Shown: positions 3,001-20,346 of the stretch, piece by piece | How the letters are laid out: each line of letters opens with the position of its first letter | Numbering within the stretch: position 1 is the first letter of the stretch | Source: Magnetococcales bacterium | Lineage (GTDB): Bacteria; Pseudomonadota; Magnetococcia; Magnetococcales; UBA8363 | Length of the DNA stretch: 64,000 nucleotides | Direction: 5' to 3' | Assembly (NCBI GenBank): GCA_002753515.1 | Contig: PEAK01000002.1 | Span: forward strand, 1 to 64,000 | Made by a program: the position numbers and the translations under genes | The notes under the pieces: generated by a model | Database searches by the model: none | Seen by the model: the letters and a program-made list of their open reading frames with translations, nothing else | What the model was told of the DNA's origin: nothing

Positions 3001-6000
3001 GTATGTTGGTTCGGGTGGGGTGTTGTCGCAACTGCGCAACGATAACGTCATCAAACAGGCGGCGGCGGATGGCCTGTTGGCGGCCAGTGCCACGAATGGC
3101 CTGGAGTTCAAGAATGCAGCGGCGGCTGGGGGTATCCAGGTGGGACGGGTCACGTATCTGGCGCGTACCGCCGATACTTCATCCACCGTAACCACAAGTA
3201 CTGTCAACAAGGATGGCATCGCCAGTTCCGGGGCTGTGGCCTTGTGGTTACCCGCCGGTAATCTGACCCAGGATACGACTGCCAACAGTACGGTCCGGCT
3301 CGGGGATATCCAGGCGACCTCGTTGTCGATGAAAGTGGATACGGGTTATGTCACCCTGGATAATCCCACCAATCAGGTGGGAACCATCGCCGCTGTTCTG
3401 GCCGGGGCGGGCCAAGCGTTTAGCGAAATGGACCTGGATGGTTTGACGGTGGGTAGCCTGACTTCGACGGTGACTGGGGCCAGCACCACGGTCAGTGGTA
3501 TCACCACCAATGTCGGGGATGTCATCCTCAAGGCCTCAGCCAACAGCACCAGTACGACCGGGGATTTGGCCGTTTCCCAAAATATCGATACCACCAATGG
3601 TGGGGCCATTGGTACGGGGGCGGTTGTTCGGGCGGCTGCGGGCAAGGGGGCGGTGACCGAATCGGGTACGGCCATCGTCAAGGCCAAATCGTTGCTGGTA
3701 GATGCAACGTCCACCTCGTCGTTGGACAATCTGAACGAAGTTTTTGACAGTGGTGCCGGTTTCGGGACCCTTACGGCCAGTATCAGCGGCGCCAGTCAGG
3801 GGCTCAAATTCAAGAATGTACGCTCCCTGGATGTGGGCACCGTGACGGTATCCCACTCGGTGGGACCATTAAGTGGGATTACGGCGACCACGGGTGATGT
3901 CACCCTGACGTTGTTGAATGCCGCGACCACCAACGATCTGACGCAGACGCAATTGGTCAAGGCGGGTGGGCTCAAGACCGACGTGGATACCGGCAAAGTG
4001 GCGCTCAACCTGATCAGCGCCGGCAACACCAATGAGATCGGCACCTTGTCGGCGGTATTGGGTGGGGCTGGCAAAGATTTCACCCTGAACGAAAAAGATG
4101 GGCTCAGCATTGGTACCGTTAATAATACTTCCGGCATTACCACCGCCAGTGGTGGCAAGATTGCCGTGGCGACGCAGGGGGGTACGATTACCGTCACCCG
4201 TAATGTGACGGCTGGCGGGACGGGTACGGTGGATCTCCGGGCCAACGGGGCGACTTCGGACATTGCCATCAATCCGGCGACCTCGCAGACGGCCACCATC
4301 AGTTCGGGCAATGGCGGTACTTTGCAGCTCTATGCCGGTCAATCGTTGACGACGGCCACCGCCAACGGTACCGGAACCGAGTTGGATACCAGCGGCAACA
4401 TTTTGTTGCAGACCGGGTCGGGCATGGGGAGTGACAGCAATCGCATCGAGATCGCCAATGCGGCCAAGCTGGCGGCGACTGCGGGCAACTCAGTGTTCTT
4501 GCGCAAGTTGGGGACGGCGAGTGATTTGGAGATCGGCACGGTTACGGCACTTGATTTCAATGGGCTGACCACGTTTGTCGCCGGTCCTGCCAATACGAGT
4601 GGGCTCACGACCACGGCCAACAATGGCAACATTTCGCTCACGGATCAGGGTGGGGATATTACAGTTACCCAAAATATAACGGCGCATGGCAGTGGCTATG
4701 TTGATATTCGGACGGCGAATGCCGGTAATTTGGGGGATATCGCCATCACCAATGGCTCGACGATTTCGAGTACCAGCGGTACCGTGCAGGTCATTGCCGG
4801 TAACACCATCACCACCAGCAGTGCCAATGGCACGACGACGGAGATTGCGACCACCGGCAGCGCGTTGTTGGAAGCGGGTTTGAGCGTCGGGACCGACAGC
4901 AACCGCATCGAGATGGGTAGTGTGAGCAAGGTGGCGGCGCGCACGTTGAGCAATGGTGCCAATAGTAATTTATGGTTGCGCAAGCTGGGGACCACCAGCG
5001 ATCTGGAGATTGGTACGGTGACGGTGCAAAACAGCGCCAGCACCTTGGATAATGCGGTTTCGGCGACTGGTCAGACGACGGTGGCAAGTGCCAAGGCCAC
5101 GGAGTTGAAGGGATTATCGACTACGGCCAACAATGGCAATATCACCCTGACGGACCAGGGGGGTGATCTGACCATCACGCAAAATGTGACGGCGCATGGC
5201 AGTGGGTATGTGGATATCAGGACGGCCAATGCCGGTAATTTGGGGGATATCGCCATCAACAATGGCGCGACGGTATCGAGTACCAGCGGTGCGGTGCAGG
5301 TGATCGCCGGCAACACCCTCACCACCGACAGTGCCAGTGGCACGACAACGGAGGTGGCCACAGCGGGTACGGCATTGTTGGAAGCGGGATTGAGCGTAGG
5401 GACTGACAGCAACCGCATTGAGATGGGCAGTGTGAGCAAGGTGGCGGCGCGCACGTTGAGCAATGGAGTCAACAGCAATCTGTGGTTGCGTAAGCTTGGG
5501 AGCAGCAGCGATCTGGAGATTGGCACGGTGACGGTGCAAAACAGCGCCAGCACCTTGGACAATGCGGTGTCGGCGACTGGGCAAACGACGGTAGCTGCTG
5601 GTTTGGCAACGGCGTTGAAAGGATTGTCGACCACGGCCAACAATGGCAACGTCACCCTGACGGATCAGGGTGGGGATATCACGATTACGCAAAACATCAC
5701 GGCGCATGGCAGTGGGTACGTGGATATCAGGACGGCCAATGCCGGCAACCTGGGGGATGTCGCCATCAATAATGGCGCGACGCTATCGAGTACCAGCGGT
5801 GCCATTCAAATGATTGCCGGGAATACCATTACCACCGACAGTGCCAACGGCACGACAACGGAGATTTCGACGACGGGGACGACGTTGTTGGAAGCGGGTT
5901 TGAGCGTGGGCACCGACAGCAACCGCATCGAGATGGGCAGTGTGAGCAAGGTGGCGGCGCGCACGTTGAGCAATGGTGCCAATAGTAATTTGTGGTTGCG

Positions 6001-9000
6001 CAAGTTGGGGACAGCCAGCGATCTGGAGGTGGGTACGGTGACGGTGCAAAACAGCGCCAGCACCTTGGATAATGCGGTATCGGCGACTGGTCAGACGACG
6101 GTGGCGAGTGCCAAGGCCACGGAGCTGAAGGGATTATCGACTACGGCCAACAATGGCAATATCACCCTGACGGATCAAGGGGGTGACCTTACCATTACGC
6201 AAAATGTGACGGCGCATGGCAGTGGGTACGTGGATATCAGAACGGCCAATACCGGTAACCTGGGGGATATCGCCATCAACAATGGTGCGACGGTATCGAG
6301 TACCAGTGGTACCGTGCAGGTCATAGCTGGTAATACCCTCACCACCGACAGCGCCAATGGCACGACGACCGAGATTTCGACGACGGGAACGACGTTGTTG
6401 GAAGCGGGTTTGAGCGTGGGGACCGACTTGAACCGCATTGAGATGGGCAGTGTCAGCAAGCTTGCGGCGCGCACCTTGAGCAATGGTGCCAACAGTAATC
6501 TGTGGTTGCGCAAGCTGGGGACTGCCAGCGATTTGGAAGTGGGGACGGTGACGGTACAAAACAGCGCCAGCACCTTGGACAATGCGGTTTTGGCCTCGGG
6601 TCAGACGACGGTGGCGAGCGGCAAGGCCACGGAGCTGAAAGGCTTATCGACCACGGCCAATAACGGGAACATTTCGCTCACGGATCAGGGTGGGGATATC
6701 ACCATTACGCAAAATATCACGGCGCATGGCAGTGGTTACGTGGATATACGCACAGCGAATGCCGGTAACTTGGGGGATATCGCGATTAATAATGGTGCGA
6801 CGATTTCGAGTACCAGCGGTGCCATTCAAATGATTGCCGGGAATACCATCACCACCGACAGCGCCAACGGTACGACGACGGAGATTTCGACGACGGGAAC
6901 GACGTTGTTGGAAGCGGGTTTGAGCGTGGGGACCGACAGCAACCGCATCGAGATGGGCAGTGTCAGCAAGCTTGCGGCGCGTACCTTGAGCAACAGTACC
7001 ACCGGGAACCATCTGTGGTTGCGCAAGTTGGGGACTGCCAGCGACCTGGAGATTGGTACGGTGACGGTGCAAAACAGCGCCAGCACCTTGGACAATGCGG
7101 TATCGGCGACAGGTCAGACGACGGTGGCGAGTGCCAAGGCGACAGAGTTGAAAGGCTTATCGACCACGGCCAACAATGGCAACATTTCGCTGACGGATCA
7201 GGGTGGGGATGTCACGATTACGCAAAACATCACGGCGCATGGCAGTGGGTACGTGGATATCAGGACGGCCAATACCGGCAATCTGGGGGATATCGCGATT
7301 AATAATGGTTCGACGATTTCGAGTACCAGCGGTGCCATTCAAATGATTGCCGGGAATACGATTACCACCGACAGTGCCAACGGTACGACGACGGAGATTT
7401 CGACCACCGGCAGCACGTTGTTGGAGGCGGGTTTGAGTGTCGGTACCGACAGCAACCGCATCGAGATGGGGAGTGTCAGCAAGCTTGCGGCGCGCACCTT
7501 GAGCAACAGTACGACCGGGAACCATCTGTGGTTGCGCAAGCTGGGGAGCGGCAGCGATCTGGAGGTGGGGACGGTAACGGTACAAAACAGTGCCAGCACC
7601 CTGGACAATGCAGTTTTGGCCTCGGGTCAGACGACGGTTGCGGGAGGTTTGGCGACGGCGTTGAAAGGCTTATCGACCACGGCCAATAATGGTAACATTT
7701 CACTCACGGATCAGGGTGGGGATATCACCATTACGCAGAATATCACGGCGCATGGCAGTGGCTATGTTGATATACGCACAGCGAATGCCGGTAACCTTGG
7801 GGATATCGCCATCAACAATGGCGCTACGGTATCGAGTACCAGCGGTGCCATTCAAATGATTGCCGGTAATACCATTACCACCGACAGCGCCAATGGCACG
7901 ACGACGGAGATAGCGACAACGGGAACGACGTTGTTGGAAGCGGGTTTGAGCGTCGGCACCGACTTGAACCGCATCGAGATGGGTAGTGTGAGCAAACTGG
8001 CGGCGCGTACCTTGAGCAACAGTACCACCGGGAACAATCTGTGGTTGCGCAAACTTGGAAGCACCAATGATTTGGAAATCGGCACGGTGACGGTGCAAAA
8101 CAGCGCCAGCACCTTGGACAATGCGGTTTTGGCCTCGGGTCAGACGACGGTTTCCGCTGGTTTGGCGACGGCGTTGAAAGGATTGTCAACCACGGCCAAC
8201 AACGGAAATATTTCGCTGACGGATCAGGGTGGGGATATCACCATTACGCAAAACATCACGGCACATGGCAGTGGTTATATAGATATCAGGACGGCAAATG
8301 CCGGCAATCTGGGGGATATCGCCATCACCAACGGTTCGACGATATCGAGTACCAGTGGTGCGGTGCAGGTGGTTGCGGGTAATACCATCACCACCGACAG
8401 CGCCAATGGCACAACGACGGAGATTTCGACAACGGGTACGACGTTGTTGGAAGCGGGTTTGAGCGTGGGGACCGACTTGAACCGCATCGAGATGGCCAGT
8501 GTCAGCAAACTGGCTGCGCGGACGTTGAGCAACAGTACCACCGGGAACCATCTGTGGTTGCGCAAGCTTGGCAGTACCAATGATTTGGAATTGGGGACGG
8601 TGACGGTACAAAACAGCGCCAGCACCTTGGATAATGCGGTTTTGGCCTCGGGTCAAACAACGGTGGCGAGCGGCAAGGCCACGGAGCTGAAAGGATTATC
8701 GACCACGGCCAACAACGGTACCATTTCGCTCACGGATCAAGGGGGTGATCTGACCATTACGCAAAATGTAACGGCGCATGGCAGTGGTTATGTGGATATA
8801 CGCACAGCGAACGCCGGCAATCTCGGGGATATCGCCATCAACAATGGTGCAACGGTATCGAGTACCAGCGGTGCGGTGCAGGTGATTGCCGGGAATACGA
8901 TTACTACCGACAGCGCCAACGGCACGACGACGGAGATTGCCACAACAGGTACGGCATTGCTGGAGGCTGGTTTGAGCGTGGGGACCGACTTGAACCGCAT

Positions 9001-12000
9001 CGAGATGGGTAGTGTGAGCAAACTGGCGGCGCGTACCTTGAGCAACAGTACGACCGGGAACAACCTGTGGTTGCGCAAGTTGGGGAGTGGCAGCGATCTG
9101 GAAATTGGCACGGTGACGGTGCAAAACAGCGCCAGCACCTTGGACAATGCGGTATTGGCCTCGGGTCAGACGACGGTGTCTGGAGGTTTGGCGACGACGT
9201 TGAAAGGATTATCGACCACGGCCAATAATGGCAACATTTCGCTGACGGATCAGGGTGGGGATGTCACCATTACGCAAAATGTGACGGCGCATGGCAGTGG
9301 TTACATTGACTTGCGAACGGCCAATGCCGGCAATCTTGGGGATATCGCGATCAACAATGGCGCGACGATTTCGAGTACCAGCGGTGCCATTCAAATGATT
9401 GCCGGTAATACCATCACCACCGACAGTGCCAACGGTACGACGACGGAGATTTCGACGACGGGAACGACGTTGTTGGAAGCGGGTTTGAGCGTGGGGACCG
9501 ACAGCAACCGCATCGAATTGGGTAATGTGAGCAAGCTGGCGGCGCGTACCTTGAGCAATGGTGCCAACAGCAATCTGTGGTTGCGCAAGCTTGGCAGTAC
9601 CAATGATCTGGAATTGGGGACGGTGACGGTGCAAAACAGTGCCAGCACCTTGGATAATGCGGTATTGGCCTCGGGTCAGACGACGGTTGCTGGTGGTTTG
9701 GCAACAGAGCTGAAGGGATTATCGACCACGGCCAACAATGGCAACATCACCCTGACGGATCAGGGGGGTGATCTGACCATTACACAAAATGTAACGGCAC
9801 ATGGCAGTGGTTACGTGGATATACGCACAGCGAATACCGGTAACCTGGGGGATATTGCGATTAATAATGGTGCGACGGTATCGAGTACCAGCGGTGCGGT
9901 GCAGGTGATTGCCGGGAATACGATTACTACCGACAGCGCCAACGGCACGACAACGGAGATTGCCACAACGGGTACGGCATTGCTGGAGGCTGGTTTGAGC
10001 GTGGGGACCGACAGCAACCGCATTGAGATGGGCAGTGTCAGCAAGCTTGCGGCGCGTACCTTGAGCAACAGTACGACCGGGAACAATCTGTGGTTGCGCA
10101 AGTTGGGGAGTGGCAGCGATCTGGAAATTGGCACGGTGACGGTGCAAAACAGCGCCAGCACCCTGGATAATGCGGTCCTGGCCTCGGGTCAGACGACAGT
10201 AGCAAATGGTTTGGCGACGGAATTGAAGGGCTTATCGACCACGGCCAACAACGGTACCATTTCGCTCACGGATCAGGGTGGGGATATCACCATTACGCAA
10301 AATGTGACGGCCCATGGCAATGGTTATATAGATTTGCGAACGGCCAATGCCGGCAATCTGGGGGATATCGCGATTAATAATGGCGCGACGATTTCGAGTA
10401 CCAGCGGTGCCATTCAAATGATTGCCGGGAATACCATCACCACCGACAGCGCCAATGGCACGACGACCGAAATATCAACGACGGGGACGACGTTGTTGGA
10501 AGCGGGTTTGAGCGTCGGCACCGACAGCAATCGGATTGAGCTGGGCAGTGTCAGCAAGCTTGCGGCACGTACCTTGAGCAACGGTACGACCGGGAACAAT
10601 CTGTGGTTGCGCAAGCTTGGCAGTACCAATGATCTGGAATTGGGGACGGTGACGGTGCAAAACAGTGCCAGCACCTTGGATAATGCGGTATTGGCCTCGG
10701 GTCAGACGACGGTTGCTGGTGGTTTGGCGACGGAATTGAAAGGATTGTCCACCACGGCCAATAACGGGAACATTTCTCTCACGGATCAGGGTGGGGATAT
10801 CACCATTACGCAAAACATCACGGCATATGGCAGTGGTTACGTGGATATGCGCACAGCGAATACCGGTAACCTGGGGGATATCGCTATCACCAATGGTGCG
10901 ACAGTATCGAGTACCAGCGGTACCATCCAAATGATAGCCGGGAATACCATCACCACCGACAGCGCCAATGGCACGACGACGGAGATCGCCACAACGGGAT
11001 CGACGCTGTTGGAAGCGGGTTTGAGCGTGGGGAGCGACAGCAACCGCATCGAGATGGGCAATGTGAGCAAACTGGCGGCGCGCACCTTGAGCAACAGTAC
11101 GACCGGGAACAATCTATGGTTGCGCAAATTGGGGAGTGGCAGCGATCTGGAGATTGGCACGGTGACGGTGCATAACAGCGCCAGCACCTTGGACAATGCG
11201 GTTTTGGCCTCGGGACAGACGACGGTGTCAGGAGGTTTGGCGACGGCGTTGAAAGGCTTATCGACCACGGCCAACAATGGCACTATTTCGTTCACGGATC
11301 AGGGTGGTGATCTGACCATTACACAAAATGTGACGGCGCATGGCAGTGGGTATGTAGACATACGAACAGCGAATGCCGGTAACCTGGGGGATATCGCCAT
11401 CACCAATGGCGCGACGGTATCGAGTACCAGCGGTGCCATCCAAATGATAGCTGGCAATACGATTTCCACCGACAGCACCAATGGTACGACAACGGAGATC
11501 GCCACAACGGGTACGGCGTTGTTGGAAGCCGGGTTGATGATTGGTACTGATGGTTACCGCATTGAATTGGGCAATGTGAGCAAGCTTGTGGCGCGAACCT
11601 TGAGCAATGGTGCCAACAGCAATCTATGGTTGCGCAAGCTGGGAAGTGGCAGCGATCTGGAAATTGGTACGGTAACGGTGCAAAACAGCGCCAGTACCTT
11701 GGATAATGCGGTTTCGGCGACTGGCCAAACCACGGTGGCAAGTTCCAAGGCCACGGAGCTGAAGGGATTATCGACCACGGCCAATAACGGTACTATTTCG
11801 CTGACGGATCAGGGTGGGGATATCACCATTACGCAAAACATCACGGCGCATGGCAGTGGTTATGTTGATATCAGGACGGCCAATGCCGGTAATCTGGGGG
11901 ATATCGCCATTACCAATGGTGCGACGATTTCGAGTACCAGTGGTGCCATTCAAATGATTGCCGGGAATACCATCACCACCGACAGCGCCAATGGTACGAC

Positions 12001-15000
12001 AACGGAGATTTCGACAACGGGTACGACGTTGTTGGAAGCGGGTTTGAGCGTGGGGAGCGACAGCAACCGCATTGAGATGGGCAATGTGAGCAAACTGGCG
12101 GCGCGCACCTTGAGCAATGGTGCCAACAGCAATCTATGGTTGCGCAAATTGGGGAGTAGCAGTGATCTGGAGGTGGGTACGGTGACGGTGCAAAACAGCG
12201 CCAGCACCCTGGATAATGCGGTCCTGGCATCGGGTCAGACGACAGTGGCGAGTGCCAAGGCAACGGCGTTGAAAGGATTATCGACCACGGCCAATAATGG
12301 TAACATTACCCTGACGGACGAGGGTGGGGATATCACCATTACGCAAAACATCACGGCACATGGTAGTGGCACTGTAGACTTACGAACAACGAATGCCGGC
12401 AATTTGGGGGATATCGCGATTAATAATGGCGCGACGGTATCGAGTACCAGTGGTGCCGTCCAAATGGTTGCGGGTAATACGATTACTACTGACAGCGCCA
12501 ATGGGACGACGACGGAGATTTCGACGACGGGAACGACGTTGTTGGAAGCAGGTTTGAGCGTGGGCAGCGATAGCAACCGCATCGAGATGGGCAGTGTGAG
12601 CAAGCTTGCGGCGCGTACTTTGAGCAATGGTGCCAACAGCAATCTATGGTTGCGCAAGCTGGGGAGCGGCAGTGATCTGGAATTGGGGACGGTAACGGTG
12701 CAAAACAGCGCCAGCACCTTGGATAATGCGGTATCGGCGACCGGCCAGACAACGGTGGCGAGTGCCAAGGCCACGGAATTGAAGGGCTTATCGACCACGG
12801 CCAATAATGGTAATATCACTCTGACGGATCAGGGTGGGGATATCACCATCACACAAAACATAACAGCGCATGGCAGTGGTACTGTAGATTTGCGAACAGC
12901 GAATGCCGGCAATCTGGGGGATATCGCCATTACCAATGGTGCGACGATTTCCAGTACCAGTGGTGCCATTCAAGTGATCGCCGGCAATACCATCACCACC
13001 GACAGTGCCAACGGTACGTCGACGGAGTTTTCGACAACGGGAACAACGTTGCTGGAAGCGGGTTTGAGCGTCGGCAGCGACAGCAACCGGATTGAATTGG
13101 GCAATGTCAGCAAACTGGCGGCGCGTACCTTGAGCAATGGTACGACCGGGAACAATCTGTGGTTGCGCAAGCTGGGGAGTAACAGTGACCTGGAAATTGG
13201 CGCGGTGACGGTGCAAAACGGTGCCGGCTCCGTGGACAATGCCATCCTGGCCTCGGGTCAGACGACGGTTGTGGGTGGGTTGGCGACGGAGTTGTTGGGC
13301 TTATCGACCTCGGCCAACGATGGCACGATTACCCTGACCGATCAGGGCGGGAATATCGCCATCACGCACAATGTGACGGCACAGGGGAGTGGTACGGTTG
13401 ACATGCGGACCGCCTGGGCGGGCAATGGCGGTAGCATCGGCATCAACAACGGCGCCAGGGTGGGGAGTACCCGGGGTACGGTGCAGTTGGTGGCCAATTC
13501 GTTAACGAGTGGCAGCAAAACCGGTACATCGGTCGGGATCGCCACCAATGGGGATGTTTTGTTGCTGGCCAATGCCGCCGTGGGCAGTGACGACTATCGC
13601 ATCACAACCTCCGGCGTGGGTACCTTGGCGGTGGAATCGGTGGGCGGCGAATGGTTGCGGCAAGAAAACGGTAACTTGAAAATCGGTACGGTGGCTGCCG
13701 TGAACAGCGGCTCGACGTTGGACCATGACATTGCCAGCCGCTCCGGGTTGAAAACAATTTACGCCCCGATCGTGCTTTCGTTGGCGGCGGGTGATGTGAC
13801 GGTCGCGGAGCGCATCGATGCCGGTGCCGCCGATGTTACCCTGAAGGCATCCGGCAGTCAATCGCTGGCGTCTGATATCACCGGCAACGTTGTCACCCTG
13901 TTGGCTGGATCCGCATCCGGCAACAACATCACCCAGTCGGGCACGGGTAAACTGACCGCCACGGCGGTGCGCGTTGTCGCGGGCGATACCGTGACCCTGG
14001 ATCGTTCGAGCAATATGGTTGGGACGATTGCGGGGCGGGCCGGTAACAATCTGACCATGACCAATAACACCGATTTGGTGATTGGCGATGTCACCACCAC
14101 CCAGGGTTCCGATGCTGCCGGGACGAGTTCCGGATTGGTGTCCACATCCGGCAATGTCGTGCTTGCGATCAAGGGAACCTTGAGTCAATCCCCCGGGTCT
14201 GTGATCAAAACATCGGCTGCCAAAGGATTGGGCATCGATGCCGTGGGCCAGGTCACCCTGAATGAGGCCAACGAGATTGGCCTTTTGGCGGCCAATGTGA
14301 GCGGGTTGGCGCAAGGCTTGGCGTTTACCAACGTCGGTGATTATGCCATCGATAGCGTGGGAAATCTGACCGGTATCACCACGCGCTACAGCCCCGTGGC
14401 CCTGACCTCCACCCAAGGCGCCATCAAAGAGACCGGGGCGGCGAAAGTGATCGCCAGCGACCTCAAAGTGAAGGCGGCAACCTCGGCAACGCTGACGAAT
14501 GCCAATCAGGCCAACAGTTTGGTGGCGGTGACGGGGAGCGATATCAGCTATTACAACGATGGCAGTCTGAATATCGGTACCGTCAATGACACCACGGGCA
14601 TTACGGCGGGTGGCAAGGTTTGGGTCCGGGCAACGGGAGATGTACAAAGCCTGCGCCCGGTTGTGGGTAGTGGCAGCGGTAATCAGGTGGTGGTCCTGGC
14701 GGCGGGACACTTCTACCGTAATCTTGCCGGCTCGGGTTCCGTACAGGCCCCCAATGGTCGCTGGTTGATCTATGACGACAATCCCACCTTGGAATATCGT
14801 TTGGAAGGATTGATGTACCAATTCCGCCGCTTGCATACCGCGTACGACTCTTATACCCCTGGAAGCGTTATCGAGGCGGGCAATGGTTATATCACGACGA
14901 CCATTATCGATGACCCCGAGCAATACGCCCGGCAGGCGGGTGGTGCTTCCTCCGCCGTGGCAACGGGTAACAACAGTACCAATGCGGTTTCCCTGTCCAG

Positions 15001-15397
15001 CGTTGGCAATGCCTCCGCAGCTGCCGGGGTGACGCCGGTGCAATTGGCCTCGATCATTCCCCCGGCGCGACCCGCCTTTGGTATTGAGGGTGGCGTAACG
15101 CCGGTATTCAGTGGTTTACCCCTGATGTTGCCAATCAAGGCGAATGGGCATTTCGTCGCCGATTTGTCGAGTGTGGTACCCAAGGGGGATATCGTCGGCA
15201 TCGAAACCAAGAGCGGGGAACCATTACCCTCCTGGTTGCGCGTGGATAAGGAAACCATGCGTGTTTCCGGTACCCCTCCCGAGGGTACCCCAGCGGTCGA
15301 ACTGCGTTTGAAAGTGAATGTTCCCGGCCAGGCAGATCCACAGACCATCGATATGACGTTATCGCCAACTTCCGATGTGGCGGCACTTCAGAGGTAA
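2..15397 (+). CDS. Giant filamentous-haemagglutinin-type exoprotein, 5'-partial
   Basis: This is the C-terminal >5,100 residues of a very large secreted adhesin-like protein. The signal peptide and TPS secretion domain lie outside the window because the frame is open at the left edge; the first ATG is at 47. The first ~110 residues match the segment that follows the haemagglutinin domain in TPS proteins: a GGGW stretch, GGQVVLWSGKATDHEG, GGQVETSS and LLDPYDLTI. A low-complexity Gly/Thr/Ser/Asn region typical of a beta-helix follows. Residues ~1520-4420 are a tandem array of ~171-residue repeats. The C-terminus (~residues 5030-5110) resembles a putative Ig/cadherin-like domain (LPSWLRVDKETMRVSGTPPEG). 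Family knowledge implies export by a TpsB/Omp85 partner, which is not in this window. No cysteines or catalytic motifs are evident, so a structural or adhesive role is inferred. Confidence 0.85.
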   Translation, partial: GGAGGGAGGGGGGGQVNIGGGWQGKDKTIAEARRVTVEKKAQMRADALTEGDGGQVVLWSGKATDHEGVISAHGAGKGKGGQVETSSRGELGVSGQVDVASPLGTGGDWLLDPYDLTISTAATSNAAAFAATGTGAIVQASTIESVINAAGTVTLSTGGGGAESGNITISSDISKTSGGAASIIFSAANNITLSSGANISSTTGALNLDFGTSSLNSGTATIQGTVATNGGNVNFYKTTVLGHATPVSTKITEVSTSASGNITFYKDVSMAAPGYAVTLSATGPESGGSYTGNGGAIDFQNNISSSMPSSPAVLWSQALSVDTSGVTPGAITLGSLSTHSVGGSAANTQLKSLTMTGPTSVTLNSGTINLMDVSGNVMVASSTQGTPAVKMVAPNTIINVTGGSRAGVNGYADYIQETFDLKTPADATARTLTVNADRSIKIKNRSIDGTTGTNTLTVTLNPFVASGAVGGGIYLNNASIKSNGGAINLGSSSAYATGYGSDSDGVTDGIYILNGKLLSSNGAVSLYGKAPLTTDAGSGIRLSGAQTDLNSGTGNLLLSGLVTAATNAGNKDGLVVGEGGSSRVTLQASGTGTITLTGDGSAVGTNPTGGSRYDGVIISSKALIKTDTGDITITGTGGGGDQTFLSENHGIRIEDTNTAIATTSGNISLTGTSGGKTTFTTGENSYGIYGKGQTMYIGSAAAAANDNVTAITDSGIITLTADFMKFVNSSSLHLKVASSGELRIQPKTASRDIQFHPDPASPTLNDDSSVVGKLYLGSNWFNGGSLSIFQAGFGTGAGYGTVGTLPTGAITIGRTDGTGTGTLTVADSTTLRDNTTLLMGTSTGNIKINAPLTVQGAASADRTLTLDMAAGGAGASAITAANLLLLGTGDYVFNGSNLVGTLAATLTGATTGHLTFNNAQALTIGSVSSEGLNTVRTATGIVANSNTTSNQVNVGTTSGALTIANSIDTGNKGVTAVYATHATTGGVVETGTAIITAGGLYVGSGGVLSQLRNDNVIKQAAADGLLAASATNGLEFKNAAAAGGIQVGRVTYLARTADTSSTVTTSTVNKDGIASSGAVALWLPAGNLTQDTTANSTVRLGDIQATSLSMKVDTGYVTLDNPTNQVGTIAAVLAGAGQAFSEMDLDGLTVGSLTSTVTGASTTVSGITTNVGDVILKASANSTSTTGDLAVSQNIDTTNGGAIGTGAVVRAAAGKGAVTESGTAIVKAKSLLVDATSTSSLDNLNEVFDSGAGFGTLTASISGASQGLKFKNVRSLDVGTVTVSHSVGPLSGITATTGDVTLTLLNAATTNDLTQTQLVKAGGLKTDVDTGKVALNLISAGNTNEIGTLSAVLGGAGKDFTLNEKDGLSIGTVNNTSGITTASGGKIAVATQGGTITVTRNVTAGGTGTVDLRANGATSDIAINPATSQTATISSGNGGTLQLYAGQSLTTATANGTGTELDTSGNILLQTGSGMGSDSNRIEIANAAKLAATAGNSVFLRKLGTASDLEIGTVTALDFNGLTTFVAGPANTSGLTTTANNGNISLTDQGGDITVTQNITAHGSGYVDIRTANAGNLGDIAITNGSTISSTSGTVQVIAGNTITTSSANGTTTEIATTGSALLEAGLSVGTDSNRIEMGSVSKVAARTLSNGANSNLWLRKLGTTSDLEIGTVTVQNSASTLDNAVSATGQTTVASAKATELKGLSTTANNGNITLTDQGGDLTITQNVTAHGSGYVDIRTANAGNLGDIAINNGATVSSTSGAVQVIAGNTLTTDSASGTTTEVATAGTALLEAGLSVGTDSNRIEMGSVSKVAARTLSNGVNSNLWLRKLGSSSDLEIGTVTVQNSASTLDNAVSATGQTTVAAGLATALKGLSTTANNGNVTLTDQGGDITITQNITAHGSGYVDIRTANAGNLGDVAINNGATLSSTSGAIQMIAGNTITTDSANGTTTEISTTGTTLLEAGLSVGTDSNRIEMGSVSKVAARTLSNGANSNLWLRKLGTASDLEVGTVTVQNSASTLDNAVSATGQTTVASAKATELKGLSTTANNGNITLTDQGGDLTITQNVTAHGSGYVDIRTANTGNLGDIAINNGATVSSTSGTVQVIAGNTLTTDSANGTTTEISTTGTTLLEAGLSVGTDLNRIEMGSVSKLAARTLSNGANSNLWLRKLGTASDLEVGTVTVQNSASTLDNAVLASGQTTVASGKATELKGLSTTANNGNISLTDQGGDITITQNITAHGSGYVDIRTANAGNLGDIAINNGATISSTSGAIQMIAGNTITTDSANGTTTEISTTGTTLLEAGLSVGTDSNRIEMGSVSKLAARTLSNSTTGNHLWLRKLGTASDLEIGTVTVQNSASTLDNAVSATGQTTVASAKATELKGLSTTANNGNISLTDQGGDVTITQNITAHGSGYVDIRTANTGNLGDIAINNGSTISSTSGAIQMIAGNTITTDSANGTTTEISTTGSTLLEAGLSVGTDSNRIEMGSVSKLAARTLSNSTTGNHLWLRKLGSGSDLEVGTVTVQNSASTLDNAVLASGQTTVAGGLATALKGLSTTANNGNISLTDQGGDITITQNITAHGSGYVDIRTANAGNLGDIAINNGATVSSTSGAIQMIAGNTITTDSANGTTTEIATTGTTLLEAGLSVGTDLNRIEMGSVSKLAARTLSNSTTGNNLWLRKLGSTNDLEIGTVTVQNSASTLDNAVLASGQTTVSAGLATALKGLSTTANNGNISLTDQGGDITITQNITAHGSGYIDIRTANAGNLGDIAITNGSTISSTSGAVQVVAGNTITTDSANGTTTEISTTGTTLLEAGLSVGTDLNRIEMASVSKLAARTLSNSTTGNHLWLRKLGSTNDLELGTVTVQNSASTLDNAVLASGQTTVASGKATELKGLSTTANNGTISLTDQGGDLTITQNVTAHGSGYVDIRTANAGNLGDIAINNGATVSSTSGAVQVIAGNTITTDSANGTTTEIATTGTALLEAGLSVGTDLNRIEMGSVSKLAARTLSNSTTGNNLWLRKLGSGSDLEIGTVTVQNSASTLDNAVLASGQTTVSGGLATTLKGLSTTANNGNISLTDQGGDVTITQNVTAHGSGYIDLRTANAGNLGDIAINNGATISSTSGAIQMIAGNTITTDSANGTTTEISTTGTTLLEAGLSVGTDSNRIELGNVSKLAARTLSNGANSNLWLRKLGSTNDLELGTVTVQNSASTLDNAVLASGQTTVAGGLATELKGLSTTANNGNITLTDQGGDLTITQNVTAHGSGYVDIRTANTGNLGDIAINNGATVSSTSGAVQVIAGNTITTDSANGTTTEIATTGTALLEAGLSVGTDSNRIEMGSVSKLAARTLSNSTTGNNLWLRKLGSGSDLEIGTVTVQNSASTLDNAVLASGQTTVANGLATELKGLSTTANNGTISLTDQGGDITITQNVTAHGNGYIDLRTANAGNLGDIAINNGATISSTSGAIQMIAGNTITTDSANGTTTEISTTGTTLLEAGLSVGTDSNRIELGSVSKLAARTLSNGTTGNNLWLRKLGSTNDLELGTVTVQNSASTLDNAVLASGQTTVAGGLATELKGLSTTANNGNISLTDQGGDITITQNITAYGSGYVDMRTANTGNLGDIAITNGATVSSTSGTIQMIAGNTITTDSANGTTTEIATTGSTLLEAGLSVGSDSNRIEMGNVSKLAARTLSNSTTGNNLWLRKLGSGSDLEIGTVTVHNSASTLDNAVLASGQTTVSGGLATALKGLSTTANNGTISFTDQGGDLTITQNVTAHGSGYVDIRTANAGNLGDIAITNGATVSSTSGAIQMIAGNTISTDSTNGTTTEIATTGTALLEAGLMIGTDGYRIELGNVSKLVARTLSNGANSNLWLRKLGSGSDLEIGTVTVQNSASTLDNAVSATGQTTVASSKATELKGLSTTANNGTISLTDQGGDITITQNITAHGSGYVDIRTANAGNLGDIAITNGATISSTSGAIQMIAGNTITTDSANGTTTEISTTGTTLLEAGLSVGSDSNRIEMGNVSKLAARTLSNGANSNLWLRKLGSSSDLEVGTVTVQNSASTLDNAVLASGQTTVASAKATALKGLSTTANNGNITLTDEGGDITITQNITAHGSGTVDLRTTNAGNLGDIAINNGATVSSTSGAVQMVAGNTITTDSANGTTTEISTTGTTLLEAGLSVGSDSNRIEMGSVSKLAARTLSNGANSNLWLRKLGSGSDLELGTVTVQNSASTLDNAVSATGQTTVASAKATELKGLSTTANNGNITLTDQGGDITITQNITAHGSGTVDLRTANAGNLGDIAITNGATISSTSGAIQVIAGNTITTDSANGTSTEFSTTGTTLLEAGLSVGSDSNRIELGNVSKLAARTLSNGTTGNNLWLRKLGSNSDLEIGAVTVQNGAGSVDNAILASGQTTVVGGLATELLGLSTSANDGTITLTDQGGNIAITHNVTAQGSGTVDMRTAWAGNGGSIGINNGARVGSTRGTVQLVANSLTSGSKTGTSVGIATNGDVLLLANAAVGSDDYRITTSGVGTLAVESVGGEWLRQENGNLKIGTVAAVNSGSTLDHDIASRSGLKTIYAPIVLSLAAGDVTVAERIDAGAADVTLKASGSQSLASDITGNVVTLLAGSASGNNITQSGTGKLTATAVRVVAGDTVTLDRSSNMVGTIAGRAGNNLTMTNNTDLVIGDVTTTQGSDAAGTSSGLVSTSGNVVLAIKGTLSQSPGSVIKTSAAKGLGIDAVGQVTLNEANEIGLLAANVSGLAQGLAFTNVGDYAIDSVGNLTGITTRYSPVALTSTQGAIKETGAAKVIASDLKVKAATSATLTNANQANSLVAVTGSDISYYNDGSLNIGTVNDTTGITAGGKVWVRATGDVQSLRPVVGSGSGNQVVVLAAGHFYRNLAGSGSVQAPNGRWLIYDDNPTLEYRLEGLMYQFRRLHTAYDSYTPGSVIEAGNGYITTTIIDDPEQYARQAGGASSAVATGNNSTNAVSLSSVGNASAAAGVTPVQLASIIPPARPAFGIEGGVTPVFSGLPLMLPIKANGHFVADLSSVVPKGDIVGIETKSGEPLPSWLRVDKETMRVSGTPPEGTPAVELRLKVNVPGQADPQTIDMTLSPTSDVAALQR
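4600..13740 (+). repeat. Tandem array of ~512-bp coding repeats in the exoprotein
   Basis: Seventeen near-identical units (510-516 bp, 170-172 aa) run from about 4600 to 13297, then a degenerate 18th to ~13740. A more diverged unit lies just before, at ~4129-4599. Each unit starts with GLSTTANNGNISLTDQGGD and carries TAHGSGYVDIRTAN, NTITTDSANGTTTE, LLEAGLSVGTDSNRIEMG, LWLRKLG and VTVQNSASTLDNAV. Units differ in a few swappable blocks: SNGANSN or SNSTTGN before LWLRK, SATGQ or LASGQ after STLDNAV, and ASAKATELKG or GGLATALKG. The mosaic of shared variants suggests unequal crossing-over and gene conversion. Confidence 0.95.
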
Positions 15398-15475: not shown

Positions 15476-15982
15476 ATGACCGTTTGTTTGGTTCACTTGG
15501 GTTGCTTGACAAAAGAATGGGCATACGCGATAAAGTGTGCCGGTTTGTTGGCCGTTTTTTTGTTCGTGGGGTGTGTCCAGGTCCATCCGGCCAGAGCCGC
15601 TTTGGGTGGTGATGAAGCATCGATTGCCCGTGACCAGACCGAAATGAATGGCACCAGACGTATCCTCAAGGGGCAAACCTTCACCACGCATGAAATCCTG
15701 GCCGACTCCGGTACGTTGGTCCGGGAGTTCATCGCAGTACCGGGTGTGGTGTTCGCGGTACTTTGGAAAGGACCCATCATGCCGGACCTGGAGCAACTAT
15801 TGGGCAACTATTTTACCGATTATCAAACGGCTGTGGAAAGCGGACGTGTGCGACGTGCCCCGGTCCTGGTGCAGCAACCGGGAATCGTTATCCGCTCAGA
15901 AGGTCATATGCGGGCCTTTTCCGGGCGTGCGTATCTCCCCCAACAGATTCCCTCCGAAATTTCCCTCGAAGACATACAATAA
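15476..15982 (+). CDS. DUF2844 family exported protein
   Basis: The product is 168 residues. The ATG at 15476 was chosen over an in-frame TTG 60 bp upstream because it follows an AAGG sequence and begins directly with a hydrophobic export signal (about residues 17-40, ending in HPARA before ALGGD). A Cys in LFVGC could alternatively be a lipobox. The mature part has the DUF2844 landmarks ALGGD, HEI, GTLVREF, VFAVLWKGP, PDLEQLLG and GHMRAFSGRAYLP. The function of the family is unknown. The next gene starts 5 bp after its stop and encodes DUF3443, a pairing also seen in Burkholderia-type genomes, so the two are probably cotranscribed and act together at the envelope. Confidence 0.85.
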   Translation: MTVCLVHLGCLTKEWAYAIKCAGLLAVFLFVGCVQVHPARAALGGDEASIARDQTEMNGTRRILKGQTFTTHEILADSGTLVREFIAVPGVVFAVLWKGPIMPDLEQLLGNYFTDYQTAVESGRVRRAPVLVQQPGIVIRSEGHMRAFSGRAYLPQQIPSEISLEDIQ

Positions 15983-15987
15983 AAATT

Positions 15988-18153
15988 ATGTACACAAACT
16001 TTTTTACCCGTTTATCCCTGTCAATTCTGGCGCTTTTGTTCACCATTGTTGCTGTAGGTTGTGGAGGCGGGGGTGGCGGCTCGTCGGATAGCGGCTCCGG
16101 CGGCTCCGGTGGTTCCGGGAGCGGTTCCACCACAAGCTCCGGGAGTAGCAGTACCGTGGTGACGACCAACATTCTCAACGGTGTCGCCGCCGTTGGCACC
16201 CCGATCCTTGACGCCAATGTCAGTGTTGTCTGTGCATCGGGCTCGCTTCTCTCCACAACGACGAGTAGCACCGGCGGGGTCTGGCAAGTCACATTATCCG
16301 GGCAAACGCTGCCCTGTGCCGTGGAATTGGGCAACGGCAAGGTCAACGGCGTGACCAACACAACATTGTATCATTCCATCGCCGTCGAGGCGGGTACCAC
16401 GAACATCACACCGTTGACCGATCTCATGGTGGCCAACCTGGCGGGAACCACTTCCCCGGCAACGTGGTTTTCGGGGCTGACGAACAACCAGAGGTCACTT
16501 GCCAGTGTCACGCAAACCCGGATCAAATCGGCATTATCCGCCTTGAGTGTCACTTTGAACGGTTTGCCCCTGTCCAGCAACAACCCGATCACGACCCCGT
16601 TCACGCCGCAAAAGGGTAACACCACAGACGACATGCTGACGGCTTTGACCAATGCCATCAACGCGACGACGGGTTTTTCCTATGCGAAAATGTTGTCTGT
16701 CATGGCCACGTCAACGGCAACGACGACCACGGTTTCGTCCTCCTTTGCGAGCAACCTGGCAACGGCCTACACCGCCATTTCCAAGGGGAGTTTCCTGGTC
16801 AGCGGCACGGTGAGTGGACTGGATGGTACTGTCGTATTGCAGAACAATGGCGGCGACAGCACATCCGTGACCAGCAATGGTACCTTCAATTTTTCCTCAA
16901 CCGTGACCTACAACTCCAATTACAGTGTGACCGTCCTCACGCAACCTGGTGGGCAAACCTGTGTGGTCACGGCGGGCAGTGGTGTGATGAAAGCCAACGT
17001 CAGCGATGTCATCGTGACCTGTACGAAAAATACGGCGACCACGACGACCGGGCAAAATGTTTTGCCGATTGTTGTCGATGCCGGTCCAGCGGGTGCCAAC
17101 GCGGTCAATACCCCGTATACGTCGGTCACCCTCTGCACCCCGGGGAAATCCACCTGCCAAACCATCGATCACATCATTGTGGATACCGGATCATCGGGAT
17201 TGCGGATCATGTCCTCTGTGCTGTCGTCATCACTTTCCCTGCCGGCAAGAACGTCCAGTACGGGTAAGCCTCTTTATGAATGCACCCGATTCACCAACAG
17301 CTACGTATGGGGTTCCATCAACACGGCTGACGTCCAATTGGGTGGGGAACCGACCTTGTCGTCGTTGGCGATTCAGATCATTGGGGATCCCAACGCCCCC
17401 TCGGCCCCACGAGGTTGTTCCCGCTCGGGTGGCGCTTCCAACAATACGGTGGCCACGTTTGGTGGCAATGGCATCCTGGGTGTGGGAACCTTCCAACAGG
17501 ATTGTGGTTCCGCATGTGTCACCGCGCCGACCGGTACCCGGGCGTATTATTCCTGCTCGGGATCGACCAGTTCTTCCTGCCTGACCGTCGCGGTTCCCCT
17601 GTCCCAACAGGTGCAAAACCCGGTCAGCTTGTTGCCCACCGACAACAATGGCGTGGTCATCACCATGCCTTCGGTTCCAGAGTCGGGCGCGGCAACGGCC
17701 AGCGGTTCCCTGATCCTGGGTATCGGTACCCAGTCCAATAATGCCTTTTCCGGCGTTACGGCGTACACGCTTGACCCAACGGATGGAACCTTTACCACCA
17801 CGTACAATGGTCAGGTTTATTCAGGGAGCTTCGTGGACAGTGGATCCAACGCCGTCTTTTTTGCTGATAGCGGTATCAGCCAATGCAGTAGTGGTTTTTA
17901 TTGTCCAAAATCGACACAGAGGCTTTCGGCGATCAATCAGGGGTTTGACGGCAAGAGTGGCATCGTCAACTTCAGTATCGTCAATGCGGACGATTTGTTC
18001 GCGAACACTTCCTATACCGCTACGAGTGGTCTCGCGGGAACCGGTACGTACAGTTTTGATTGGGGATTTCCGTTTTTCTATGGTCGGACGGTTTATACCT
18101 CCATTCAGGGTACGAGTAGCGGTGGTGTCAGTGGTCCCTATTTCGCGTATTGA
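15988..18153 (+). CDS. DUF3443 family lipoprotein with two D[TS]G motifs
   Basis: The product is 721 residues. The ATG at 15988 is preferred to a longer frame because it begins a lipoprotein signal (hydrophobic core, then VAVGC followed by a Gly/Ser linker), placing the protein in the outer envelope. Residues ~50-340 form an Ig-like/carboxypeptidase-like stretch with disulphide-type cysteines. From ~residue 360 the DUF3443 domain starts with NVLPIVVDAGPAGANAVNTPY. It contains IIVDTGSSGLRIM (Asp399) and FVDSGSNAVFF (Asp617), separated by 218 residues, the same layout as the two catalytic Asp motifs of pepsin-like bilobal aspartic proteases. Family function is not established; peptidase activity is an inference. 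It directly follows the DUF2844 gene. Confidence 0.82.
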   Translation: MYTNFFTRLSLSILALLFTIVAVGCGGGGGGSSDSGSGGSGGSGSGSTTSSGSSSTVVTTNILNGVAAVGTPILDANVSVVCASGSLLSTTTSSTGGVWQVTLSGQTLPCAVELGNGKVNGVTNTTLYHSIAVEAGTTNITPLTDLMVANLAGTTSPATWFSGLTNNQRSLASVTQTRIKSALSALSVTLNGLPLSSNNPITTPFTPQKGNTTDDMLTALTNAINATTGFSYAKMLSVMATSTATTTTVSSSFASNLATAYTAISKGSFLVSGTVSGLDGTVVLQNNGGDSTSVTSNGTFNFSSTVTYNSNYSVTVLTQPGGQTCVVTAGSGVMKANVSDVIVTCTKNTATTTTGQNVLPIVVDAGPAGANAVNTPYTSVTLCTPGKSTCQTIDHIIVDTGSSGLRIMSSVLSSSLSLPARTSSTGKPLYECTRFTNSYVWGSINTADVQLGGEPTLSSLAIQIIGDPNAPSAPRGCSRSGGASNNTVATFGGNGILGVGTFQQDCGSACVTAPTGTRAYYSCSGSTSSSCLTVAVPLSQQVQNPVSLLPTDNNGVVITMPSVPESGAATASGSLILGIGTQSNNAFSGVTAYTLDPTDGTFTTTYNGQVYSGSFVDSGSNAVFFADSGISQCSSGFYCPKSTQRLSAINQGFDGKSGIVNFSIVNADDLFANTSYTATSGLAGTGTYSFDWGFPFFYGRTVYTSIQGTSSGGVSGPYFAY

Positions 18154-18215: not shown

Positions 18216-18291
18216 TGGAGCCGATGTGGGGAATCGAACCCCAAACCTACGGATTACAAATCCGTTGCTCTGCCAATTGAGCTACATCGGC
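18216..18291 (-). tRNA. tRNA-Thr (UGU)
   Basis: On the minus strand the sequence folds as a complete 76-nt tRNA. The acceptor stem GCCGATG pairs with CATCGGC, the D arm contains AGCTCAATTGGCAGAGCA, and the anticodon arm ACGGA-TTTGTAA-TCCGT gives anticodon TGT. The T arm is GGGG-TTCGATT-CCCC, and CCA is encoded at 18216-18218. The rest of the ~320-bp gap between 18154 and 18474 shows no gene. Confidence 0.97.
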
Positions 18292-19341: not shown

Positions 19342-20346
19342 TCACGATTGGTTTTGGACGATGGGGTGGATGTCGTGGCCCCGTGGGGTGTGTTGTGGCA
19401 TACGATTCCCCTTGCCACACAGGGTGATGGTACCATTCGCCAACAGGGGACGGACCCGTTCCAGGATGCGCAGGCGGGCGGCGTGAATTTCGTCGAAGGC
19501 GGGGATTGGTTTGGATGCCATGTCTTCGCGATTCAGTTGGCGCACACGCTGGGACATATTGTTGAAGAATCGATCCGTCAACGCGGTGGAAACGTGGGAC
19601 AGGGCGCAGTATAGATCGTTGAGATCGATCAACCGCATAAGTTGTTGCATGCTCCGGTCATCCAGGAGGATGAGGTCTTCAAACAGGATCAGGCCCCGGC
19701 CCAAGCGTTCCGCTAGGGCGGCGTCATCCTGATCCAGGCGTTGCAGGATGTGACCGGCCCATTCGGGGCGTTGGCGTTGCAGCAGGGTGGTGAGGCTATC
19801 CGGGTCCATTCCGGTGCCGCCAATGCCGTCTTCCCGGTCCAACCCCAAAGAAGCCAAATGTTCCAGCAGGGCTGATTCGATTGTGCGCAGTATTTCAGGC
19901 GTGGGAGGACGTTGCGCAATCATGCAGCGGGCCACCCGGGATTGGAGCGGGAGGGGAAATGTTTCCATGACCTGGGCGGCTTGGCTCGCCTCCAACTTTT
20001 CCAGGATGAGGGCTATGGTTTGTGGATGCTCTTTTTCCAGGAGTTGCGCGACGGCTATTGCTGGCAACCTTCGGAGTGCAAGCCAGGGTGTCCGGACGGG
20101 TTCTGCCGAAGCCGCCGCTATCTTCAAACCCGATTGCAGGAAAGAGTGCGCCCGTGCCGCTCCGCCCATGACGGTGCCTTCGCCGGGTGTGACTCCCCGG
20201 GATTGGCCATGCCCGGTCACTTCCATATGGGTCATGAGCGCCACGATCTTTTTCAGATCTGTCTCACGCAAGCGGGTGATCACCTTGGTGGCCTCCTCCC
20301 ATTGGGCTTGCAAGAGGTAATGGGCGATCTTTTCGTGATGATTCAT
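19342..20346 (-). CDS. FliG-like flagellar motor switch paralogue
   Basis: The product is 334 residues, the usual FliG length. Residues ~1-75 are a poorly conserved helical region resembling the FliG N-domain. Residues ~90-155 are a clear middle domain with the EHPQTIALIL signature, QAAQVMETFPLPLQSRVARCM and PEILRTIE. Residues ~205-300 resemble the torque domain: FEDLILLDDRSMQQLMRLID, then FFNNMSQRV. The stretch aligned with PLREKF of standard FliG reads ALTDRFF, so one charged torque residue is not conserved. No other flagellar gene is nearby, and it sits 15 bp after an SRAP gene. It is therefore probably a specialised or diverged paralogue rather than the main rotor FliG. Confidence 0.8.
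   Translation of the reverse strand: MNHHEKIAHYLLQAQWEEATKVITRLRETDLKKIVALMTHMEVTGHGQSRGVTPGEGTVMGGAARAHSFLQSGLKIAAASAEPVRTPWLALRRLPAIAVAQLLEKEHPQTIALILEKLEASQAAQVMETFPLPLQSRVARCMIAQRPPTPEILRTIESALLEHLASLGLDREDGIGGTGMDPDSLTTLLQRQRPEWAGHILQRLDQDDAALAERLGRGLILFEDLILLDDRSMQQLMRLIDLNDLYCALSHVSTALTDRFFNNMSQRVRQLNREDMASKPIPAFDEIHAARLRILERVRPLLANGTITLCGKGNRMPQHTPRGHDIHPIVQNQS

Follow-up and report, generated by a model that had tools for sequence, protein, structure and literature searches.

DUF3443 lipoproteins are predicted to be exported, pepsin-like aspartic peptidases of bacteria

Structural modelling and residue conservation lead us to propose, at a probability of roughly four in five, that DUF3443 proteins are bacterial aspartic endopeptidases of the pepsin type, exported, lipid-anchored, and rich in disulphides. 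The member considered here is encoded in a window of 64,000 nucleotides of Magnetococcales DNA, and an initial annotation had likened it to a bilobal aspartic protease of the pepsin type. This comparison was upheld: AlphaFold2, Foldseek, and VIA-align agree on a pepsin-type bilobal fold, and both aspartates of the putative active site are invariant.

Protein layout and the two aspartate loops

The gene (15988..18153, + strand, as are all its features below) encodes a lipoprotein of 721 aa, a predicted pepsin-like aspartic peptidase, recognized from its open reading frame, its translation, and a PF11925 match (E = 7e-129). The match, which scores 430.4 bits against a curated cut-off of 25 bits, spans residues 355-721 (17050..18150), the DUF3443 domain. 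Searches with the 721-aa protein returned no other family from Pfam up to E 10 and no match from NCBIfam. The translation begins with a signal peptide and a lipobox, VAVGC, with Cys25 and a glycine at +2 (15988..16062), in keeping with the earlier description of the protein as a lipoprotein. A Gly/Ser-rich linker lies behind the lipid anchor (16063..16158) and is followed by an N-terminal extension to which the Pfam search assigned no family (16159..17049). Within the extension, residues 62-214 share ~34% identity with hypothetical proteins encoded by three large phages of Burkholderia glumae; no phage match was found for the DUF3443 domain itself.

Each predicted lobe of the domain contributes one aspartate loop. 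In the N-lobe, IVDTGSSG (17176..17199) carries Asp399 (17182-17184), and in the C-lobe, FVDSGSN (17830..17850) carries Asp617 (17836-17838); the positions, the hydrophobic residues before each aspartate, and the spacing of 218 residues are as originally described. To determine conservation, we gathered relatives from 19 contig loci and from further genomes. Asp399 and Asp617 are each present in 107 of 107 distinct full-length DUF3443 domains, a set with a median pairwise identity of 0.43 and a minimum of 0.24 (2000 sampled pairs). Only ten columns are fully invariant among the 107 domains, and both aspartates are among them. Around Asp399, residue 398 is V/L/I/M in 107/107, residue 400 is T in 106/107 and T or S in all, residue 401 is G or A in 105/107 (Ala rather than Gly in 19), and S402 and G404 are found in every domain. 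Around Asp617, residue 616 is F/I/L/V/M in 104/107, and S/T at 618 and G619 each occur in 106/107. Both aspartates are thus set in the D-[TS]-[GA] loops that are catalytic in clan AA. An earlier alignment of 60 domains gave the same picture, with Asp617 in 60/60 and Asp399 in 59/60, the remaining sequence being a fragment with a gap at that position. Ten cysteines are also conserved, each in 94-107 of the 107 domains; together with a lipobox that a regular expression detects in 96/107 members, they fit an exported protein in an oxidising compartment.

These counts apply to intact genes, since 59 of 169 open reading frame hits were partial, many of them pieces of broken genes, and were excluded from the 107-domain count. 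Neither the 60- nor the 107-domain set is a random sample: both are biased to high-scoring hits, and 16 genomes, most of them low-scoring, were added deliberately. Weak DUF3443 matches in five genomes (G555, G573, G603, G614, and G624; loci L074-L079, L082-L086, L089-L093, and L096-L100) proved to come from genes broken by stops and frameshifts. Four of these five genomes belong to one genus and are reduced assemblies, mostly very fragmented. Among the members examined, decay of DUF3443 takes the form of gene breakage and never of aspartate loss in an intact gene. A match in another genome (G142; E = 3.9e-4) fell below the cut-off and was taken as spurious. The nearest relative (L002:5899-7002) is without the stretch right before the first aspartate loop, where it reads GQNVMPIIVDTGS; this gap is either an in-frame deletion or an assembly error between two similar words.

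The surroundings of the gene in the window were also surveyed. An adhesin-like open reading frame of 5116 aa (47-15397) is repetitive and Gly/Thr/Asn-rich, a unit around DQGGDITITQNITAHGSG recurring many times, and no Pfam family was found for it at E<=0.001; its start is close to the contig's left edge, and it is possibly truncated. Directly downstream of the DUF3443 gene is a tRNA-Thr(tgt) (18216-18291, - strand) whose 3' end faces it. This tRNA was considered as the insertion site of a possible genomic island; the comparison with a close relative (G001) reached as far as the tRNA-Thr, next to which the G001 contig stops. A FliG-like gene (19342-20346) was rejected as evidence of a flagellar link in the window: this gene lies two genes off and on the other strand from DUF3443, and the DUF599-adjacent stretches of three genomes of the same genus (L150-L152) are without DUF3443.

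Predicted fold and distance from known pepsins

We modelled the window DUF3443 domain together with 16 relatives (17 sequences) in AlphaFold2, leaving two frameshifted sequences (L015 and L018) and one fragment (L020) out of the folding alignment. The resulting model has a pLDDT of 73.1 and a pTM of 0.77 (the five models span 58.8 to 73.1); its N-lobe is confident, and its C-lobe has a pLDDT of ~60-75, falling below 50 at model residues 341-367. A Foldseek search of the PDB returned 289 chains at E<=0.001, the best at E 3.5e-8 with a probability of 1.00; the best 50 of the 289 were BACE1 entries and one endothiapepsin, with TM-scores of only 0.42-0.52. In VIA-align, 540 of 998 chains reached Z>=8 and the best 50 were all aspartic proteases, headed by 3fv3_A (Candida parapsilosis Sapp1; Z 17.3, rmsd 3.5, 259 residues aligned) and, among the matches listed, including rhizopuspepsin, chymosin, cathepsin D, BACE1, and pepsin, down to Z 15.9. 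Both lobes are covered by the structural matches, which extend over model residues 1-347. The same pipeline applied to DUF2844, the product of the neighbouring gene, as an internal negative control gave no Foldseek match at E<=0.001 and none at Z>=8. The predicted model therefore has the pepsin-type fold of clan AA, with two lobes per chain and one aspartate in each, as in family A1; the A2 retropepsin layout of a single lobe that homodimerizes does not apply to a chain with two lobes and two aspartate loops. Overall, a pepsin-like fold for DUF3443 is very likely. Neither a fold unrelated to aspartic proteases nor the loss of an aspartate from intact members, either of which would have spoken against the original proposal, was observed.

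Local features of the domain are consistent with two pepsin lobes. The N-lobe psi-loop motif, NGILG (residues 494-498; 17467..17481), has G498 in 106/107, and residues 496-498 read [IV][LIV]G in most of the 107 domains. The C-lobe psi-loop region, FDWGFPFFYG (residues 690-699; 18055..18084), has a near-invariant Gly693 (106/107) and F697 in 104/107; here the pattern is x-[WLFI]-G693 with Asp at residue 691 in 86/107, so that hydrophobic-hydrophobic-Gly is not strict. When profiles of the N-lobe and the C-lobe were aligned to each other, the best match fell precisely on the two aspartate loops, in register (E 0.011, against 0.084 for the reversed control). Pepsins, which contain an internal repeat, would give such a match; the signal is weak, with an hhalign probability of <=4%.

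A predicted hairpin at residues 428-450 (17269..17337), delimited from the secondary structure of the model and from conservation, probably corresponds to the pepsin flap. Within it, residue 435 is F in 96, Y in 10, and S in 1 of the 107 domains; we take this residue to be the equivalent of pepsin Tyr75, having set the register against pepsin by eye. Likewise, Arg406 (106/107) presumably occupies the site of Trp39 in pepsin. Residue 620, three past the second aspartate, is Ser or Thr in 106/107, in contrast to the Ala218 that a 2009 survey by Rawlings and Bateman gives for most bacterial pepsins (PMC2761423). The same survey reports that Tyr75Phe weakened rhizopuspepsin and that, as of its writing, none of the pepsin homologues with Phe75 had been shown to be active (PMC2761423). 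Taken as a whole, Phe435, Arg406, residue 620, and the cysteine set suggest an exported aspartic peptidase whose flap chemistry is altered, and not a copy of the shewasins.

At the level of sequence, the relationship to pepsins is faint. Neither the window protein nor any of the 17 aligned members matched PF00026 with E values allowed up to 10, and direct Pfam, NCBIfam, and phmmer/PDB searches with the window protein found no link to pepsins; rows that phmmer placed at the low-complexity linker were dismissed as chance. Compared with PDB sequences, the 17-member profile had its best match at the Asp617 loop, to covalent HIV protease dimers, with a non-significant E of 0.97. An hhalign profile of 57 of the 60 domains (again leaving out L015, L018, and L020) paired both aspartate loops with the catalytic loops of three bacterial A1 proteins at E 0.011-0.027, with a reversed-profile control at E 0.45 and a probability of 3.7% at best. 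These alignments were run locally; the -glob option gave only alignments of 2-30 columns, which are meaningless, and a larger A1 set, run at -mact 0.01, yielded a long alignment of poor quality, the register of which was discarded. Because the sequence misses PF00026, we place DUF3443 in clan AA by its predicted fold and not in family A1.

The DUF2844 partner and genomic distribution

The initial annotation described DUF3443 as always close to DUF2844, and this held almost without exception: of 60 DUF3443 loci, 59 have a DUF2844 gene immediately upstream in the same orientation, and the one that does not is a fragment that starts at the edge of a contig. In the window, the partner (15476..15982, + strand; PF11005, E 2.3e-37) starts with a signal peptide that ends in ARA, and its mature part begins at ~15599. 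Among 249 genomes from a single family (that of G321), 113 have both genes, 134 have neither, one has DUF3443 alone, and one has DUF2844 alone (Fisher p 8e-70, uncorrected for kinship); the lone DUF3443 is a partial match and the lone DUF2844 a weak one. One locus has tandem DUF2844 copies (L012:5152-5529 and 5553-5930) ahead of a single DUF3443 gene.

The DUF2844 model is confident (pLDDT 93.2) and consists of a helix, four strands, a helix, and three strands. Its structural matches are weak, with a best Z of 7.0 and PepSY-like (DUF2874) and BLIP-like rows at Z 5-6. We looked for a known inhibitor fold and found no clear match beyond these rows, an absence that excludes nothing. DUF2844 is most likely a chaperone or an inhibitor, a role that we offer as a guess because the structural rows are weak.

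Of the 249 genomes, all drawn from one Burkholderiaceae-like family, 114 carry DUF3443, often more than once; DUF3443 also occurs in records of Sphingomonas, Asticcacaulis, Geotalea, Neisseriales, Oligoflexia, and Bdellovibrionales. The genome of the window was the only carrier among 41 genomes searched, and none was found in seven other genomes of its genus. The nearest relatives of the window DUF3443 are in betaproteobacterial MAGs, at 61-64% identity, and the window gene was likely acquired horizontally.

Beyond DUF2844, no conserved neighbour was found across L002-L020, and neither cheZ nor flhB was found in L002-L019. We then compared 40 hand-picked regions of 15 kb each from 28 genomes. 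In 14 of them (14 genomes; L160, L163, L165-L169, L171, L173, L175, L177, L181, L187, and L195), the pair is preceded on its own strand by cheZ within Burkholderiaceae chemotaxis/flagellar clusters, and flhB follows downstream within the stretch in 11 of these 14. A pair beside cheZ is also present in L154. On Burkholderia glumae plasmid pBGF2, the pair sits between cheZ and flhB. Genomes from which several copies were fetched have at most one copy beside cheZ. In Burkholderia cenocepacia, BCAL0136 is cheZ and BCAL0140 is flhB, with three genes between them (PMC3079749); we infer that two of these three are DUF2844 and DUF3443. In the 26 non-flagellar regions, one additional open reading frame is common to 7 loci in 3 genera and was taken as ordinary synteny. 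A separate open reading frame after the pair (L009:7202-8857) matches a calpain-type C2 peptidase (E 2.3e-8), and its homologues follow the pair in L010 and L014.

Proposed function and comparison with known systems

The window protein is most likely an outer-membrane-anchored, disulphide-rich aspartic endopeptidase, an activity that we deduce from its predicted fold and conserved residues. It would be exported and lipidated at Cys25 and, because of the glycine at +2, probably sorted to the outer membrane, with the linker and the N-terminal extension keeping the catalytic domain off the membrane. The domain is strongly predicted to fold into two pepsin lobes, each giving one aspartate loop, and by analogy with aspartic peptidase chemistry Asp399 and Asp617 would hold between them the water molecule for attack on the peptide bond, beneath the flap at 428-450. 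The exported DUF2844 might silence the peptidase or aid its folding. Since, in Burkholderiaceae, one paralogue sits in a chemotaxis/flagellar cluster, its substrates may be surface or motility proteins.

Three other readings bear on this proposal. A pepsin fold that is no longer enzymatic and instead binds a protein, a peptide, or a glycan has precedents in plant xylanase inhibitors and 7S globulins, which are non-enzymatic pepsin-fold binders; the Phe at the putative flap site (96/107) and Arg406 at the presumed Trp39 site would weaken classical catalysis, and a lipid anchor with an N-terminal extension would suit a binding protein. However, pepsin folds without enzyme activity have usually lost a catalytic aspartate, whereas in DUF3443 both persist in 107/107 domains, whose median identity is 43%, and Thr400, Ser402, and Gly619 are kept in 106-107 of 107; we consider such a binder improbable. 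Far more remote, to the point of being hardly credible, is a beta-rich lipoprotein of adhesin type whose DTG and DSG motifs arose by chance: the giant repetitive adhesin-like open reading frame upstream in the window, and the frequency of Gly/Ser/Thr-rich sequences in surface proteins, would suit it, but the invariant aspartates in both loops and a pepsin match across the whole domain at Z 17.3 argue against it.

The third reading, an aspartic peptidase whose main target is not an outside substrate but itself or DUF2844, the two genes forming a zymogen, is compatible with our preferred explanation and competes with it on substrate only. It draws on the near inseparability of the two genes (59/60 loci; 113 of the 115 genomes that carry at least one of them have both), on the apparent export of DUF2844, and on the PepSY-like and BLIP-like rows obtained for a confident DUF2844 model. 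Those rows nevertheless stay below Z 8 (best 7.0), a range that the tool grades as possibly a common arrangement only, and we consider an internal role rather unlikely. A bolder version, which we put forward tentatively and also consider rather unlikely, casts the DUF2844-DUF3443 pair as a two-gene secreted zymogen: an anchored pepsin with a dedicated exported inhibitor or folding partner, possibly of a new fold, one Burkholderiaceae copy of which acts on the flagellar/chemotaxis apparatus. If this were true, exported bacterial pepsins would form a widespread family that lies far from the cytoplasmic pepsins known to date.

Our preferred reading remains that of an exported, lipid-anchored, pepsin-like endopeptidase. 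Should the family prove active, exported proteolysis of the pepsin type would be common in DUF3443-bearing bacteria, DUF2844 would gain its first function, and the finding would bear on the origin of bilobal pepsins. Both families of the pair, PF11925 (DUF3443) and PF11005 (DUF2844), are annotated as of unknown function. A literature search that covered few subscription papers and preprints found no paper naming DUF3443 or DUF2844 and none assigning DUF3443 in its title or abstract, and a search by accession number returned only Plasmodium gene names that contain the string. An existing Pfam clan or MEROPS assignment of DUF3443 is possible.

By a long-held view, pepsin-like enzymes were eukaryotic; the 2009 survey describes them in seven bacterial genomes of >960 prokaryote genomes, all predicted to be intracellular (PMC2761423). 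It describes these bacterial A1 homologues as having no signal peptides (PMC2761423), and shewasin D is described as cytoplasmic (PMC4814920). Like shewasins A and D (MEROPS A1, bacterial), DUF3443 is predicted to be of the bilobal pepsin type with a D-[TS]-G loop per lobe; unlike them, it has a lipoprotein signal, ten conserved cysteines, a DUF2844 partner, and no detectable PF00026 similarity. N-terminal sequences that resemble signal peptides occur in two bacterial PF00026 proteins (L071 and L072), though not in the shewasins, and export is therefore not in itself the novel part. Eukaryotic pepsins and BACE1 (A1) are, among the matches listed, the top structural matches across nearly the whole DUF3443 domain at 12-19% identity; DUF3443 differs from them in its bacterial lipid anchor, in the predominance of Phe at the putative flap site, and in Arg406 at the presumed Trp39 site. 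RloA, one of the secreted retropepsin-like proteases of Pseudomonas aeruginosa, is an exported bacterial member of clan AA, as DUF3443 is predicted to be, but RloA has one DTG motif and retropepsin hallmarks (PMC12239564), whereas DUF3443 has two aspartate loops in one predicted bilobal chain. What is likely new in DUF3443 is hence an exported, lipid-anchored, far-diverged bacterial pepsin type with a constant partner and a predicted peptidase activity.
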